IMG/VR virus record: IMGVR_UViG_3300013231_000003
Location: 1 to 21,342 of that record
Source: a virus
Length of the DNA stretch: 21,342 nucleotides
Strand: one strand, 5' to 3'
Shown: positions 11 through 14,894 of the stretch, piece by piece
How the letters are laid out: each line of letters begins with the position of its first letter
How positions within the stretch are numbered: the stretch's first letter is position 1
Position numbers and translations under genes: made by a program
Notes under the pieces: generated by a model
Seen by the model: the letters and a program-made list of their open reading frames with translations, nothing else
Database searches by the model: none
What the model was told of the DNA's origin: nothing

Positions 11-28
11 TACCCACGTTACCCACGT
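11..28. repeat. tandem 9-bp direct repeat
   Basis: TACCCACGT occurs twice head to tail (11-19 and 20-28), followed by GTTACG. It contains CGTTACC, the reverse complement of the GGTAACG core of the repeats at 69-93, so both groups may be binding sites of one protein. That link is inferred. Confidence 0.6.
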
Positions 29-68
29 GTTACGAGAAAAGCCAGTGTTTATGCGGCCTTCAGGCCAA

Positions 69-93
69 GGTAACGCGGTAACGCCGGTAACGC
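69..93. repeat. three GGTAACGC direct repeats (iteron-like)
   Basis: GGTAACGC occurs at 69-76, 77-84 and 86-93, a spacing of 8 and 9 bp. The array directly abuts an all-A/T tract. Short phased repeats beside an A/T tract are typical of initiator-binding sites at replication origins of plasmids and phages. No initiator gene is adjacent within the window, so origin function is a hypothesis. Confidence 0.6.
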
Positions 94-94
94 C

Positions 95-125
95 TATTTT
101 TAATTTATTTTTTATTTTTTTATTT
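95..125. other. A/T-only tract, possible DNA unwinding element
   Basis: 31 consecutive bases contain no G or C, mostly T runs broken by single A residues. It starts one base after the GGTAACGC array. It could be an unwinding element of an origin, an UP-like promoter element, or simply intergenic A/T sequence. Confidence 0.5.
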
Positions 126-160
126 CTCTGGGAAAACACTATATAGATAGCGAAATTAAG

Positions 161-219
161 ACCGTGGCCCGTGGTCCGTGCCTGCTGTCTCGCGACATGG
201 GGCTCGTGGACCACGGACC
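161..219. repeat. two GC-rich dispersed repeats in inverted orientation
   Basis: 161-180 reads ACCGTGGCCCGTGGTCCGTG, built from the 7-bp unit GYCCGTG. 205-219 carries the reverse-complement type, CGTGGACCACGGACC. GGTCCGTG (173-180) can pair with CACGGACC (212-219) around a 31-base loop. The 15-mer at 166-180 recurs exactly at 15433-15447. These are two members of the dispersed family listed elsewhere. Confidence 0.7.
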
Positions 220-230
220 CCGGATCAGGG

Positions 231-326
231 TCAAAGGATCAAGAGGAACAGTACGCCGAGGATGACGCTTATCCCGGCTACGGCGATAGCCGCAGCGAGA
301 AGCAGTTCACCTATTCGGTTACTCAC
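231..326 (-). CDS. 31-residue membrane microprotein
   Basis: This short gene starts with GTG, overlapping the TAA stop of the upstream 59-residue gene within GTGAGTAA. AAGGA lies eight bases before the start, a good ribosome binding site. After a short polar start (SNRIGE) the product is almost wholly hydrophobic, with alanine, isoleucine, valine and leucine running to the C-terminus, so it is predicted to be a single membrane-spanning peptide with no loop or catalytic part. Its role is unknown; a holin-like or membrane-signalling role is possible but nothing proves it. It is the last gene of a three-gene coupled cassette. Confidence 0.55.
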   Translation of the reverse strand: MSNRIGELLLAAAIAVAGISVILGVLFLLIL

Positions 327-8921: not shown

Positions 8922-10424
8922 TCATAAAGCGTATGCTCTTAAATAATCTTCAGGTTCTAGGATGTAGAGGTTCTGAAGGGCCCGCGTTACCCCCACGTAA
9001 AAAACGCGGTGAAGATCGTCCCCCGGCGTATCCAGCGCCGCCGCAGTCAAATCCGGAAGGATTACAACGTTTTCTGCCTCTCCACCTTTTGTTCCGTGGA
9101 TCGTGGACAATCTTATTCGGGGCTTGGCGTTGAACTTCTCGCCTCGCCGGAGAAGGGCCGTGATGTATGCCCTGTCCCCCTCTGGTATTTTATCCATGGC
9201 CTCGTGCCAGATCATCTCGTTCGTGGCCAATAGACCAAAATGTTCTTGTAAGTCGGTCAGTCCAAACATTTCGTTATCGTGGGCCTCTATCTTTTTATGG
9301 CCCCGTTTGATACGCACCCCGTTGCCAGACATGTAAGAGTAGATAGCTTGCGCCGTGCCGCAGGTGATCACGCGCCCTTTCCGCATAGCCTCCCAGCCAT
9401 TAATAGCCAGCGACATTTTTTCCGGTATAGATCTTCCGCCGTTTTGGCGCTCAAACAGATAGCCGCCGTTTTTTAACTCCTGCTCTATCGGATAAAGCAT
9501 GAACCGAGCTTGTGCCATAACAAGCCAAGAACCTTGCGACATATCTATGGAGCGGATGTCCGGCACACGCAGTATTTGTCCGCGCTCTTGCCGTGGGCGG
9601 TACACCTTGGGGAACCGGTTTTGAATGCGCCCCGCAATTTTTTCTGCAAGCTCATGAATCGCCGCAGGCACCCGGTAGCTTTGTTCTAATACTTCTGCGC
9701 CTCCGGGAAGATTGATGAAGTGATCTACGTCCGCCCCCGCCCACCGGTAGATAGCTTGGTCGTCATCGCCTGCTACGAACATTCGCTCTGACCTACCGTC
9801 TAGCTTGTGAGCAATGTCCCATTGAAGTGGAGAAAGATCTTGGGCCTCATCCAAGAAACAAATTTTCATGTGCGGGACAAGGTGATCGGCCTGCTCTACA
9901 AACATTTCCAGCATGTCTGTAAAGTCGATCAAGCCAAAAGCTTTTTTGTAATTCTCATAAGAATCTGCAACATACTTCACTTCTATCCACGTGAAATTAA
10001 CTTCACTGTGGTTGTACTCTGTGCGCAAAGAAGTCTTTTTAGTTTTTGCAAGGTTGATTAGCTGAAGGATTGGATGATCTGTCGCTTTAAACGACACATC
10101 CTCTTCCTCGCTCATAGCGCCGCTCAAGTTAAAACCGATGGCCGCGGACAACTCTTTATAGTTCTGCGGGCCCATCATTTGGTTTTCTTTGACACCCATC
10201 AAACGGTAAGCCAAAGAATGTATGGTGCGGAAGTACGGTAGGTCTTTGTCGGGGTCCAAATCAAAACGCTTTGCCGCTCGCTCTTTGGCCTCGTTAGCGG
10301 CTTTTTTAGTGAATGCAAAAAACCCCACTTGTGATGGGGTTATTCCGCTGTCTAAAGACTTCTCTACCATGTTCAGCAAAGTGGTCGTCTTCCCGGTCCC
10401 GGGTGGCCCAAAAATACGAAACAT
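8922..10424 (-). CDS. UvrD/Rep-like superfamily 1 DNA helicase
   Basis: The 500-residue protein has all core motifs of a 3'-5' SF1A helicase: Walker A GPPGTGKTTT (6-15), motif Ia (FFAFTKKAANEAKERA), DEAQD (192-196), GDDDQAIYRWAGA (219-231), SYR (249-251), STIHGTKGGEAE (440-451) and VFYVGVTRA (474-482). The N-terminus starts almost at Walker A, with no Q motif, and the size is below the usual 670-720, so the 2B-type insertions are reduced. It likely unwinds DNA for the phage polymerase. The start overlaps the primase stop in TGATG, and a dispersed repeat (10431-10446) covers the place of a ribosome site. Confidence 0.9.
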   Translation of the reverse strand: MFRIFGPPGTGKTTTLLNMVEKSLDSGITPSQVGFFAFTKKAANEAKERAAKRFDLDPDKDLPYFRTIHSLAYRLMGVKENQMMGPQNYKELSAAIGFNLSGAMSEEEDVSFKATDHPILQLINLAKTKKTSLRTEYNHSEVNFTWIEVKYVADSYENYKKAFGLIDFTDMLEMFVEQADHLVPHMKICFLDEAQDLSPLQWDIAHKLDGRSERMFVAGDDDQAIYRWAGADVDHFINLPGGAEVLEQSYRVPAAIHELAEKIAGRIQNRFPKVYRPRQERGQILRVPDIRSIDMSQGSWLVMAQARFMLYPIEQELKNGGYLFERQNGGRSIPEKMSLAINGWEAMRKGRVITCGTAQAIYSYMSGNGVRIKRGHKKIEAHDNEMFGLTDLQEHFGLLATNEMIWHEAMDKIPEGDRAYITALLRRGEKFNAKPRIRLSTIHGTKGGEAENVVILPDLTAAALDTPGDDLHRVFYVGVTRALQNLYILEPEDYLRAYAL

Positions 10425-11962
10425 CAGAACGGGTCCGTGGCCCGTGTTTCAAAGTTCTTGGACTCTACCTGATCGTGCGGGATCTCACTGATCGGCACTC
10501 GCCAAACTCTTATGGGCTTACCCTTTACTTTTAACACCGTAGACTCGCCGTTGATGTCTCGTAGCCGCTGTGCCACCTTGTGTGTCTTGAACTCGCTGAA
10601 GCGGTTCTTGCGCAAAAATCCTTCAAAGTCTTTTAACCGGAAATGCACGGCGTTTGTTTCGTCGTCTACCCATGGCCTGCGCAACAAAATCTCTTCACGG
10701 TCTTCCGCCTTCTGAGTCGAAGTGCAGAACTCGTCAAGATACTCGTAGAACTGGCCGTTGATGCTGGCGTCTTCTGACACCTCCATGATAGACCCGTCGG
10801 TCTCAGACATCTCTTTCATCAACTGATTGATTCGGGCTTCCCAGCCGCGCTTCGGCATGGTCTGGGGCATGAAGTTAAGTTGCTCAATACACGCCTTCTG
10901 AAACACCGTCTGGTTTTGCAGCGCATCGGTGTCTAGCTCCAGAGGCACACCGTTAACGTCCAGAAACCACACGGGCGGGATAGAGTTGTACTTCCGCAAG
11001 TTGGCGACTGCCATATCACTAACTGCCGCGCCAATCCCGAACTTTCGGGTTTGACACAACTCGCGGTTACAGTACGGCTGAATGGGCGCGTCACTACACC
11101 GATACGCGTAGTCCTTCTTCTCCAACTGCTTGACCACGAGGTTGACCTCGTTAAGCGGCAACGGCGGGTCAATGTAAGCCATGTTGTGGTGCAGGATTTC
11201 ATCCTGCCACGTATCCGGGTACGCCTTCCGGAGATAGACCCCTATGCTGAAGAGTCCGTTGTTTCGTCCCCCTTCGCTGATTTTTTGGGCGCATAGGGTT
11301 TGGAGACAGGGCGGACCGTCCACAATTGCGGTGTCTTCAACTTTTTGATGCGTAATTGCTTGGAGTTGTTCTGGCGTTTGTACGTGCGTTTCATATAACG
11401 CAAAAAACTCATGTAACGTCGCCGCACTACCATCATCATTCAAGGCATACCTCAACCCGTCCTCCGCATCGAAGTACGGCATATTGAGGAAGTTGCCTAT
11501 ATCGCCACGATCTAAAAAGAGTTTGATTTGTTTGGGGAAGATCTCGCTTCCGCCGTACCCCAGACCACTAGCTAAATGCTGTAACGTGGACTGCATTGTC
11601 TTTGCAGTTACCCATTCGCTACAGAAAAGAAAACAATGTGCGCCCCCCGACTTTGAACGACATACTACCAAAGGCATCTTGCTACGGCGAATTTTCTCAA
11701 CCAGCCGCGTGAGGTCTAACGGGTATTCGTCAATGTCGATACAACCCCATTTACAGGAGTCGTCTTCGTTAATTGGGATGATCCCAATCCCTGCCCCAGA
11801 ACCGGCTAAATGCTGCTCAAAATGTTCCGTGGTCCGTGGTTCGCGGACGACTCTTGCTTTGCCGGTGTTCTTGCCACTTGCTTTTGTACTGTCGATTTCA
11901 AACGTGCCGTAGGCTTGCTTGAGGCCATCGAAGATAGCCGCAAATCTTTTTGCATCAGACAT
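10424..11962 (-). CDS. archaeo-eukaryotic-type primase (AEP/PrimPol-like)
   Basis: The 512-residue protein makes primers for phage replication. The catalytic core shows GCIDIDEY (Asp76, Asp78), then CRSKSGGAHCFLF (Lys104 to His109), then GSEIFPKQIKLFL and GNFLNMPYF, the motifs of the AEP primases found in phages and in TOTE-type systems. A PriCT-like domain follows (EGGRNNGLF, 230-238), then a Cys motif (Cys289, Cys298, Cys303) that may bind metal, and a C-terminal region of about 190 residues without a known motif, perhaps winged-helix. No ribosome site is clear before the ATG. The N-terminus includes a dispersed repeat read as PRTTEH, and the last codons a copy read as TRATDP. Confidence 0.8.
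   Translation of the reverse strand: MSDAKRFAAIFDGLKQAYGTFEIDSTKASGKNTGKARVVREPRTTEHFEQHLAGSGAGIGIIPINEDDSCKWGCIDIDEYPLDLTRLVEKIRRSKMPLVVCRSKSGGAHCFLFCSEWVTAKTMQSTLQHLASGLGYGGSEIFPKQIKLFLDRGDIGNFLNMPYFDAEDGLRYALNDDGSAATLHEFFALYETHVQTPEQLQAITHQKVEDTAIVDGPPCLQTLCAQKISEGGRNNGLFSIGVYLRKAYPDTWQDEILHHNMAYIDPPLPLNEVNLVVKQLEKKDYAYRCSDAPIQPYCNRELCQTRKFGIGAAVSDMAVANLRKYNSIPPVWFLDVNGVPLELDTDALQNQTVFQKACIEQLNFMPQTMPKRGWEARINQLMKEMSETDGSIMEVSEDASINGQFYEYLDEFCTSTQKAEDREEILLRRPWVDDETNAVHFRLKDFEGFLRKNRFSEFKTHKVAQRLRDINGESTVLKVKGKPIRVWRVPISEIPHDQVESKNFETRATDPF
10431..10446. repeat. dispersed GC-rich repeat at the primase-helicase junction
   Basis: GGGTCCGTGGCCCGTG is identical over 16 bases to 4808-4823. Read in the primase frame it encodes RATDP near the C-terminus, ending just before the stop codon that overlaps the helicase start. 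Confidence 0.7.
11825..11846. repeat. dispersed GC-rich repeat in primase gene
   Basis: Contains TTCCGTGGTCCGTGG plus a degenerate third unit TTCGCGG. It lies in the N-terminal coding part of the primase and reads REPRTTEH. Confidence 0.6.
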
Positions 11963-13426: not shown

Positions 13427-13442
13427 GGGTTTGGGGAAATTT

Positions 13443-14894
13443 ATGTACGACTACAAGACTGAGCCTTACGAACATCAACGGACAACGTTTGAAGATTCTT
13501 GGCAGCGCCCGTATTACGGACTGTTCATGGAAATGGGTACGGGTAAATCTAAAGTCGCCATCGACACGATGGGCGCTTTGTTTGAAGCAGGCGACATAGA
13601 CACCGCACTGATCATTGCACCGAAAGGCGTCTTTGATAACTGGGTTAAAAAAGAAATACCGGTTCATCTACCAGATCGGGTGCAACACAAGCTGGTGAAG
13701 TGGCAACCCAACTTCACGCAAAAATTCCGCGCCGAGATCCAATCTATTGCGGACCCCAAGGACCGTGAGCCGGGGTTCTTGCACATTCTGGTTATGAACA
13801 CCGAAGCCTTCTCCACGCAGAAGGGCGCGTCTGCCGCACAGAAGTTTGTGAAGCTCAACCCCAACTGCCTGACGATTTTGGACGAAAGCACCAGCATCAA
13901 GAACAAGGGCGCACAGCGGACCAAGAACCTCATCAAGGTGGGGCAGGCGTCAAAGTATCGACGCATCCTGACCGGTTCGCCTATCACAAAAAGCCCCATG
14001 GATCTGTTTAGCCAGTGCATGTTCTTGGATCAGGACGCGCTTGGCTTTGCCAGCTATTACTCCTTTCAGGGCCGCTACGCTGTTGTACAGCGCAGGAGCA
14101 TGGGAGCGCACAGCTTCAATCACGTGACGGGCTACCGCAGGCTGGATGAGTTGGGCGAAAAGTTGGACCGCTTCAGCACCCGGATACTCAAAGAGGAATG
14201 CTTGGACTTGCCCGAAAAGGTTTACCAGCGGCGCGAGGTAAACTTGAGCAAAGAGCAGGTGGTTTTATATAAGCAAATGAAGGACTTAGCGCTGGCTCAG
14301 TTGGAGCAGGGTAAGCTGGCAACGACGGCGTCGGTGCTGACGCAGATTATGCGGCTACAGCAAATCTGTTGCGGCCACCTTCAACCTGACGAAGGGCCGA
14401 TCCAAGAAGTTAAAAATAACCGCCTTGATGAACTGATGGATGTCATCGAAGAGGTTAATGGTAAAGCCATCATCTGGGCCACGTGGACTTATGACATCCA
14501 CAGGATAGAAAAAGCCCTAAAGAAAAAGTGGGGCAGTGGCGCAGTAGCATCCTACTACGGTGAGACTGACCAAGATGACAGACAAGACATCATCGAAAGA
14601 TTCCAAGATCCCGACTCCGAGTTACGTTTCTTTGTTGGACAACCCCGGACAGGTGGATACGGCATTACTCTGACCGAAGCAAACACAGTGATTTACTTCA
14701 GCAACAGCTACGATTTAGAGATCAGGCTGCAATCAGAGGATCGCGCACACCGGATTGGCCAGAAAGACAACGTGACCTACGTTGATCTGGTCAGTCCCGG
14801 GACAATTGATGAGCGTATTTTAGCCGCTTTACGCGACAAGATAAATATTGCCGGGGACGTTTTAGGCGAAAGCGCCAAAGATTGGCTTATTTAG
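13443..14894 (+). CDS. SNF2-like superfamily 2 helicase
   Basis: The 483-residue protein is a DNA-dependent ATPase of the SNF2 family. It has a Q-type motif (EHQ at 10-12), Walker A EMGTGKSK (30-37), motif II LDEST (146-150; DEST in place of the usual DEAH), TGSP (177-180), a motif V region (GGYGITLTEANTVIYF) and motif VI QSEDRAHRIGQ (about 430-440). Phage members are thought to remodel or restart replication forks or to act in recombination. I use the ATG at 13443 with GGGG upstream rather than an in-frame TTG at 13431. It is the only replication gene on the plus strand. Its stop overlaps the stop of the opposing virion gene by three bases. Confidence 0.9.
   Translation: MYDYKTEPYEHQRTTFEDSWQRPYYGLFMEMGTGKSKVAIDTMGALFEAGDIDTALIIAPKGVFDNWVKKEIPVHLPDRVQHKLVKWQPNFTQKFRAEIQSIADPKDREPGFLHILVMNTEAFSTQKGASAAQKFVKLNPNCLTILDESTSIKNKGAQRTKNLIKVGQASKYRRILTGSPITKSPMDLFSQCMFLDQDALGFASYYSFQGRYAVVQRRSMGAHSFNHVTGYRRLDELGEKLDRFSTRILKEECLDLPEKVYQRREVNLSKEQVVLYKQMKDLALAQLEQGKLATTASVLTQIMRLQQICCGHLQPDEGPIQEVKNNRLDELMDVIEEVNGKAIIWATWTYDIHRIEKALKKKWGSGAVASYYGETDQDDRQDIIERFQDPDSELRFFVGQPRTGGYGITLTEANTVIYFSNSYDLEIRLQSEDRAHRIGQKDNVTYVDLVSPGTIDERILAALRDKINIAGDVLGESAKDWLI

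Follow-up and report, generated by a model that had tools for sequence, protein, structure and literature searches.

In passages of PMC4234260, P4 alpha is described as a protein that carries a primase and uses a winged helix to bind short repeats of the origin, after which it unwinds the DNA and primes; its primase is of the bacterial (TOPRIM) type. The same passages describe ORF904 of pRN1 as the archaeo-eukaryotic primase of a mobile element, with a C-terminal winged helix, while excerpts of PMC8718748 report that the NrS-1 PrimPol starts de novo at TTTGGTTA. For TcpK, which binds tandem 9-nt repeats at oriT of pCW3, sections of PMC6137059 place the beta-wing in the major groove and give the recognition helix a single backbone contact. 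Origins and initiators that change together have also been described: according to extracts of PMC2974675, begomovirus strains that do not support each other's replication differ jointly at a single base of the iteron core and a single residue of Rep, and extracts of PMC8263062 on PLE RepA with its origin and on ICP1 Odn indicate that origin and initiator binding domain covary and that origins diversify to evade an origin-directed nuclease. The initiators of SaPI and SCCmec bind direct repeats, as stated in parts of PMC7581432.

The DNA analysed here is the virus record IMGVR_UViG_3300013231_000003, which was taken at its full length of 21,342 bases (positions 1 to 21,342) and is called the window. 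At its beginning, it carries a cassette of short repeats next to an A/T-only tract. From the data presented below, we infer binding and origin function, and consider it quite probable that this cassette is an iteron-type replication origin whose initiator would be the phage's own archaeo-eukaryotic primase. The likeness to P4 alpha would lie in the combination of short origin repeats with a primase-bearing protein that has a winged helix, here a predicted one. P4 alpha has a fused helicase. Unlike P4 alpha, the window primase is archaeo-eukaryotic and without a recognised helicase domain, and a UvrD-like helicase is encoded by a separate gene; the window primase may therefore work like P4 alpha without being a member of that type. 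ORF904 of pRN1 and the NrS-1 PrimPol are, as the window primase, archaeo-eukaryotic primases of mobile elements, but both carry a fused helicase domain, pRN1 is without iterons, and priming by the NrS-1 enzyme was assayed on short synthetic templates. TcpK is the best structural match of the predicted winged helix and shares with it the tandem sites and, as envisaged for the primase, a wing in the major groove; it differs in being a stand-alone conjugation protein without a primase, and the sequence identity is about 10%. In begomovirus Rep, core base and initiator residue differ together, as do the core and a residue of the proposed initiator here; Rep is a rolling-circle initiator of a plant ssDNA virus and an unrelated protein. 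The PLE/ICP1, SaPI and SCCmec systems differ in that they are satellite or island elements with other binding domains, and in that whole domains are exchanged instead of one residue.

Results

Gene order of the window

To judge from its sequence, the window is a piece of a DSL-LC04/HTVC023P-like marine phage genome. Its polymerase A is closest to that of DSL-LC04 (56% identity) among the GenBank phages, followed by 023Pt_psg01 (54%) and the pelagiphages HTVC023P (50%) and HTVC027P (49%). Most of the genes lie on the minus strand. Read in this direction, two long proteins come first (the DSL-LC04 gene at the corresponding place is labelled DNA transfer protein), followed by an opposed SNF2-type helicase gene, and then by genes for Pam3 gp33-like and Pam3 gp34-like proteins, the primase, the UvrD-like helicase, polymerase A, a Cas4-like exonuclease, a 2OG-Fe(II) oxygenase with a related neighbour, and small proteins; the repeats come last. 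The oxygenase gene (1498-2190) and its neighbour (815-1594) together occupy 815-2190 of the window. The only match of the 815-1594 product is a PHROG labelled DNA endonuclease V, which the oxygenase matches as well, and this label may be wrong.

The repeat cassette

The repeats and the A/T tract that an earlier note had reported at the start of the window are indeed present there, with two copies of TACCCACGT (11-19 and 20-28), three copies of GGTAACGC and a 31-nt run without G or C (Table 1). This run is the longest of its kind in the window, the runner-up having 13 nt. In 300 dinucleotide shuffles of the window, the longest A/T run was 23 nt, and no shuffle (0/300) contained an 8-mer three times in 30 nt, when 8-mers were counted that consist of at least three letters and whose first two copies lie 6 nt or more apart. 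Thus, by dinucleotide shuffling, neither the repeat cluster nor the A/T run is expected by chance. The unit kept in relatives is not the 9-mer TACCCACGT but the 5-nt core GTTAC, which is found on the plus strand at 18-22 and 29-33, and on the minus strand at 70-74, 78-82 and 87-91. The inverted repeat that adjoins arm 1, and the same place in relatives, is hairpin-like and rich in CCGTGG/CCACGG.

Table 1. Features of the repeat cassette and of the primase in the window.
Feature	Position	Strand	Basis
Iteron R1, CGTTACC, in opposite orientation to the left group	17..23	+	Inverted copies kept in relatives
Iteron R2, TGTTACG	28..34	+	Window sequence and relatives
GGCCTTCAGGCC, short palindromic spacer separating both iteron groups, imperfectly kept	55..66		Window and relatives
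Iteron L3, GGTAACGC on the plus strand, GCGTTACC on the minus strand	69..76	-	Window sequence
Iteron L2	77..84	-	Window sequence
Iteron L1	86..93	-	Window sequence
A/T-only run, candidate unwinding element, arm 1	95..125		Longest A/T run; shuffles; very similar in close relatives
Conserved outer part of arm 1, CTATATAG box	126..161		Inverted copy before TerS in relatives, beyond window position 1
Imperfect inverted repeat, 21-nt arms, fast changing in relatives	160..232		Window and relatives
Codon of Val476, covarying residue	10535..10537	-	Column 476 (counted from 0) of the primase alignment; printed protein
Archaeo-eukaryotic primase, proposed initiator	10424..11962	-	PF22548, E 1.1e-11; PHROG 21866, E 4.8e-105; Foldseek CAPP Prim-Pol, E 2e-9
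C-terminal winged-helix domain of the primase, about residues 398-495 (predicted)	10478..10771	-	AlphaFold2 models; TcpK match

Conservation of the cassette in relatives

Absence of the repeats from close relatives had been named in the earlier note as grounds for rejecting an origin; the cassette is present in close relatives, and it is kept in all ten loci (10/10) found via the neighbouring 81-aa gene. Read on the minus strand, an A/T arm with the CTATATAG box is followed by three direct repeats, a short GGCC palindrome and two inverted repeats; beyond a spacer, the A/T arm recurs in inverted orientation, and next to it a Terminase_2 TerS gene begins; the array therefore extends past position 1 of the window, since the second arm and TerS are seen in relatives. 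The general plan consists of three direct and two or more inverted GNNAC cores, usually flanked by two A/T-rich arms. Among 15 loci read by eye, whose TerS proteins are 61-78% identical, 13 have this layout with at least two inverted copies, and the arrays of the other two (L036 and L053) are degenerate. In a wider set, 116 of 133 distinct arrays upstream of TerS-like hits scored as having three direct and at least one inverted copy after A/T-rich DNA; the remaining 17 include degenerate arrays, arrays below the scoring thresholds and four GenBank phages. The standard cassette was found neither in the degenerate arrays L053 and L157 nor in the four GenBank relatives. By eye, other repeats stand beside TerS in the GenBank relatives (L199 13512-14010, L200 11320-11870, L201 14740-14955), namely TGGCAC repeats in 023Pt_psg01, ACTAGGAAA in HTVC023P and GTGTTTCAC/GTGTTACA in HTVC027P, and the primase C-termini of these phages are divergent.

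The same plan before TerS was found in a second clade, whose primases are 38-41% identical to that of the window. Here, the array has three direct and three inverted copies, which read GTACTC in L182 and GTCCTC in L190, with all copies (6/6) changed jointly. Upstream of TerS in relatives of this clade (L363-L442), the cores GTACTC, GTCCTC, GTCCTA, GTAAAC, GTAATC and GTAAATC occur in a comparable arrangement, and some arrays are mixed. The primases of L443 and L444/L449 differ in 11 columns, of which a single one, with Asn or Thr, belongs to the wing, and from this one contrast no residue can be singled out. The TerS of the second clade was not found in 23 further records searched, a search that shows nothing about its absence.

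Direct repeats beside an A/T-rich region, as in an iteron-type origin, are thus found in the window and in its relatives. The cassette is also intergenic and directly before TerS, and its arms bear TATA-like boxes in opposite directions, as could be the case for an operator, with the primase or a regulator bound to the repeats and governing transcription of the TerS operon or of the preceding small genes; the CTATATAG-boxed A/T arms would then be promoters, and replication would start elsewhere. Against this speak the base composition of the arms, one of which ranks first or second for A/T content among the 60-mers of all four long records examined (4/4), and the several mirrored copies beside A/T-rich DNA, which have the look of iteron origins. 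A primase acting as a gene regulator would also be unusual. The covariation described below indicates a binding partner and not the purpose of the binding, and an operator is, on balance, considered unlikely.

Concerted change of the core

The core types TTAC, TAAC, GTAC, GGAC and GAAC were seen, assigned by hand from alignments of loci that were listed as the best 80 and that include many near copies. Nearly all copies within an array switch jointly: among close relatives, GTTAC, GTAAC, GGTAC or GGGAC stands in all three direct copies (3/3) and its complement in nearly all inverted ones, and the A/T arms are much alike while the core differs. In GGGAC arrays, one inverted copy often deviates (L026, which also has GGTTAC; L143 and L145, with GGTCAC; L133, with GGGTCAC). 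A GGAAC core is present in two records of another clade (L280 and L277), and arrays are mixed in L064/L249, L243, L241 and L261, that of L064 having one GTAC and two TTAC. The TTAC and TAAC types each occur in more than one clade, and the core change thus happened repeatedly.

As left and right copies change together, their complementarity is preserved, which would also be expected if they paired as a hairpin in RNA or as a cruciform. Three left and two right copies at unequal spacing do not form one stem, however, and pairing leaves the change of a primase residue with the core unexplained, so that such a structure hardly comes into consideration. A link to the NrS-1 start site TTTGGTTA was tried as well; TAAC-type repeats do contain GGTTA, but since the cores are variable, the link was kept as an analogy only.

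Residue 476 of the primase follows the core

In a first screen, core type was compared with neighbouring protein families, 24 of the 35 queried having enough contigs to score. Column 476 of the primase showed a normalised mutual information of 0.78 with core type, compared to 0.49 for the next primase column. Four families of 6-10 contigs reached 1.0 and one of 15 contigs reached 0.82; these five covered few contrasts, and none of them surpassed primase column 476 in the contrast test, which was applied to families of at least 8 contigs. Val is paired with TAAC, Leu with TTAC, and Gln with GTAC and GGAC, and this rule holds in 21 of 22 contigs, the misfit being the window; Lys is paired with GAAC.

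The contrast test comprised six sister-group contrasts of differing core type, with the window left out. Among 3077 variable columns of the neighbouring proteins, primase residue 476 was the only one to follow all contrasts (6/6; runner-up 4/6, with overlapping residue sets), where the sister groups had been chosen by hand after column 476 was noticed, two of the six contrasts share the TAAC group, and the column was selected from the same data as used to test it. The sole other column with at least 12 contigs and disjoint TTAC/TAAC residues belongs to the gene at 13431-14894 (13 contigs), and it followed one of two contrasts.

In a 43-contig primase tree made without the wing columns, TTAC/TAAC and Leu/non-Leu shifted together in 6/6 independent pairs when the window was excluded (p 0.031); when it was included, the joint shift was seen in 5.7 of 6 pairs on average, and the opposite direction never. 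The Gln link is represented by two independent pairs. Among the 43 rows, TAAC occurs with 19 Val and 4 Ser, TTAC with 11 Leu and 1 Val (the window), GGAC with 5 Gln, GTAC with 1 Gln, GAAC with 1 Lys and the mixed array of L064 with 1 Gln. The four contigs with TAAC and Ser are an exception to the rule and belong to one clade; the mixed array of L064 with its Gln is another. L064 and L350 are in the tree and were absent from the binary tests; left out of the tree were the degenerate L053/L054/L159/L160 and L157, the GenBank phages L198-L201, and L203, whose primase fragment has Val with TAAC. Outside the first 22 contigs, a set that is not a blind test, Leu was found with TTAC in 4/4, Val with TAAC in 11/15 and Ser in 4/15, and Gln with GGAC in 1/1. 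In the 15 loci read, Leu is encoded by TTG, CTG or CTT, and Gln by CAA or CAG, and these varied codons suggest that both residues arose repeatedly at this position. For a binding of the repeats by the replicon's own initiator, this covariation with residue 476 is an indirect sign.

The gene that follows the cassette encodes a Terminase_2 TerS (PF03592, E 1.1e-7), and the cassette precedes it in the ten loci found via the 81-aa gene and in the other loci read. The repeats could accordingly be TerS-binding sites of a packaging (cos or pac) site, a reading modelled on the R sites of lambda cosB. The same TerS sequence (201 residues, without the first few), however, is found in L089, L009, L010, L095, L093 and L107, which have TAAC repeats, and in L016/L116, which have TTAC repeats, and no TerS column fits the contrasts (best 3/6); repeats and TerS specificity do not change together. 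In addition, three contigs that end inside the cassette (the window, L020 and L105) break at different places, and in G011, whose two contig ends are close to the primase and to TerS, respectively, the distance between these genes is about 9.7 kb across the join, as in relatives, so that nothing here indicates a shared terminus. The map of G011 appears closed at this join. TerS-binding repeats, the first rival considered, were dropped because identical TerS proteins go with different cores, and a packaging site is regarded as very unlikely.

The predicted winged helix of the primase

Sequence and structure comparisons revealed an archaeo-eukaryotic catalytic domain in the primase, with PF22548 above the cut-off and a match of the N-terminal part to the CRISPR-associated Prim-Pol CAPP. 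A Pfam scan with E up to 0.01 yielded no helicase and no TOPRIM domain, in contrast to the P4 alpha type with its TOPRIM primase and fused helicase. The AlphaFold2 models (mean pLDDT 82.3 for the whole primase and 82.7 for the last 115 residues) predict an N-terminal catalytic part and a C-terminal winged helix, with residue 476 in the first strand of the wing. When solved structures and Pfam were searched with profiles of the winged helix, no convincing match emerged, and no solved origin-binding domain was matched in sequence. The best structural match of the predicted domain is TcpK, with a Foldseek E of 0.0055 at best (probability 1.00), and with Z 9.6 and rmsd 2.6 over 89 residues against Z 7.3 for the best non-TcpK entry, a match that was obtained after residue 476 had been found. 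Binding of tandem 9-nt repeats by the wing of TcpK agrees with the direct repeats being spaced by 8-9 nt and with the location of residue 476.

GC skew and the parS-like palindrome

GC skew, a check proposed in the earlier note, gave a divided result. In two records, the minimum of the detrended cumulative skew is close to the cassette, at distances of 0.6 and 1.0 kb (G001, 46,193 vs 45,609; G011, 6,217 vs 7,194), but in two others it is 5-6 kb off (G042, 36,237 vs 42,254; G041, 35,633 vs 30,535), which makes it mildly supportive, as a weak sign, of an origin at the cassette.

A perfect palindrome, TGTTCCACGTGGAACA, is located at 768-783, 27 nt before the 81-aa gene, and we take it to resemble the bacterial parS site. 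With C/T and G/A allowed in the middle of the site, it is present in 12 of 22 loci and absent from 10, all of which keep the cassette; these loci are partial, and the palindrome may lie elsewhere in those genomes. It also occurs upstream of other genes, such as that of the large terminase, and is not tied to the cassette. Two long records have 2 and 3 copies, including one at about 170 nt upstream of a large-terminase-like gene, against an expectation of 5e-5 per 57.7 kb. A joint origin/partition locus with this site is not supported by this distribution. The array as initiator-binding sites next to an unwinding element agrees with the kept layout, the extreme A/T arm and the covariation of the core with the predicted DNA-binding domain of the primase.

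The window as an exception

The window combines Val476 with TTAC repeats. Compared to L082/L083, which have TAAC repeats, it shows 3 differences in 116-900 and 18 in 16-115. When compared over 1-204 with L099/L109/L110, which have TTAC repeats, it is identical over 1-59 and 62-204. The terminal 100-200 bases of the window thus look like a different strain from its backbone, and the cassette end may be a recombinant, or a chimeric join via shared sequence at the contig end. If the end is chimeric, the Val476/TTAC exception disappears.

Discussion

In the proposed model of an iteron-type origin, the C-terminal winged helix of the primase would bind each iteron, with residue 476 of the beta-wing reading the two bases in the centre of G-N-N-A-C. 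As three iterons point one way and two the other, they would load primase molecules facing the two A/T-rich arms. The arms would then open and the primase would prime the strands thus exposed; extension of the primers, probably bidirectional, would be the task of the phage helicase and polymerase A.

No report of such a rule between core and residue was found in the literature searched, most subscription papers being outside its reach, and the accessible part of the text of PMC9599517 on HTVC023P-type phages contains no mention of 'iteron'. If the model is true, both origin and initiator would be in hand for a widespread group of marine phages that is known mostly from metagenomes. It would also provide a natural series of phages whose origin specificity appears to be set by a single residue, and thus a test bed for how initiator and origin change together without loss of replication.

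A more tentative extension, which we regard as possible but doubtful, is that marine phages keep several mutually exclusive origin 'dialects', in which the wing residue and nearly all repeat copies switch together repeatedly, and which would bar co-infecting relatives, satellites and origin-directed nucleases. A pressure from origin-directed nucleases on these phages is speculation. If the dialects are real, a replication-compatibility code would be contained in one amino acid and two bases, with a like concerted change of the core in the second clade, and phages, like satellites, may face pressure to keep their origins private.
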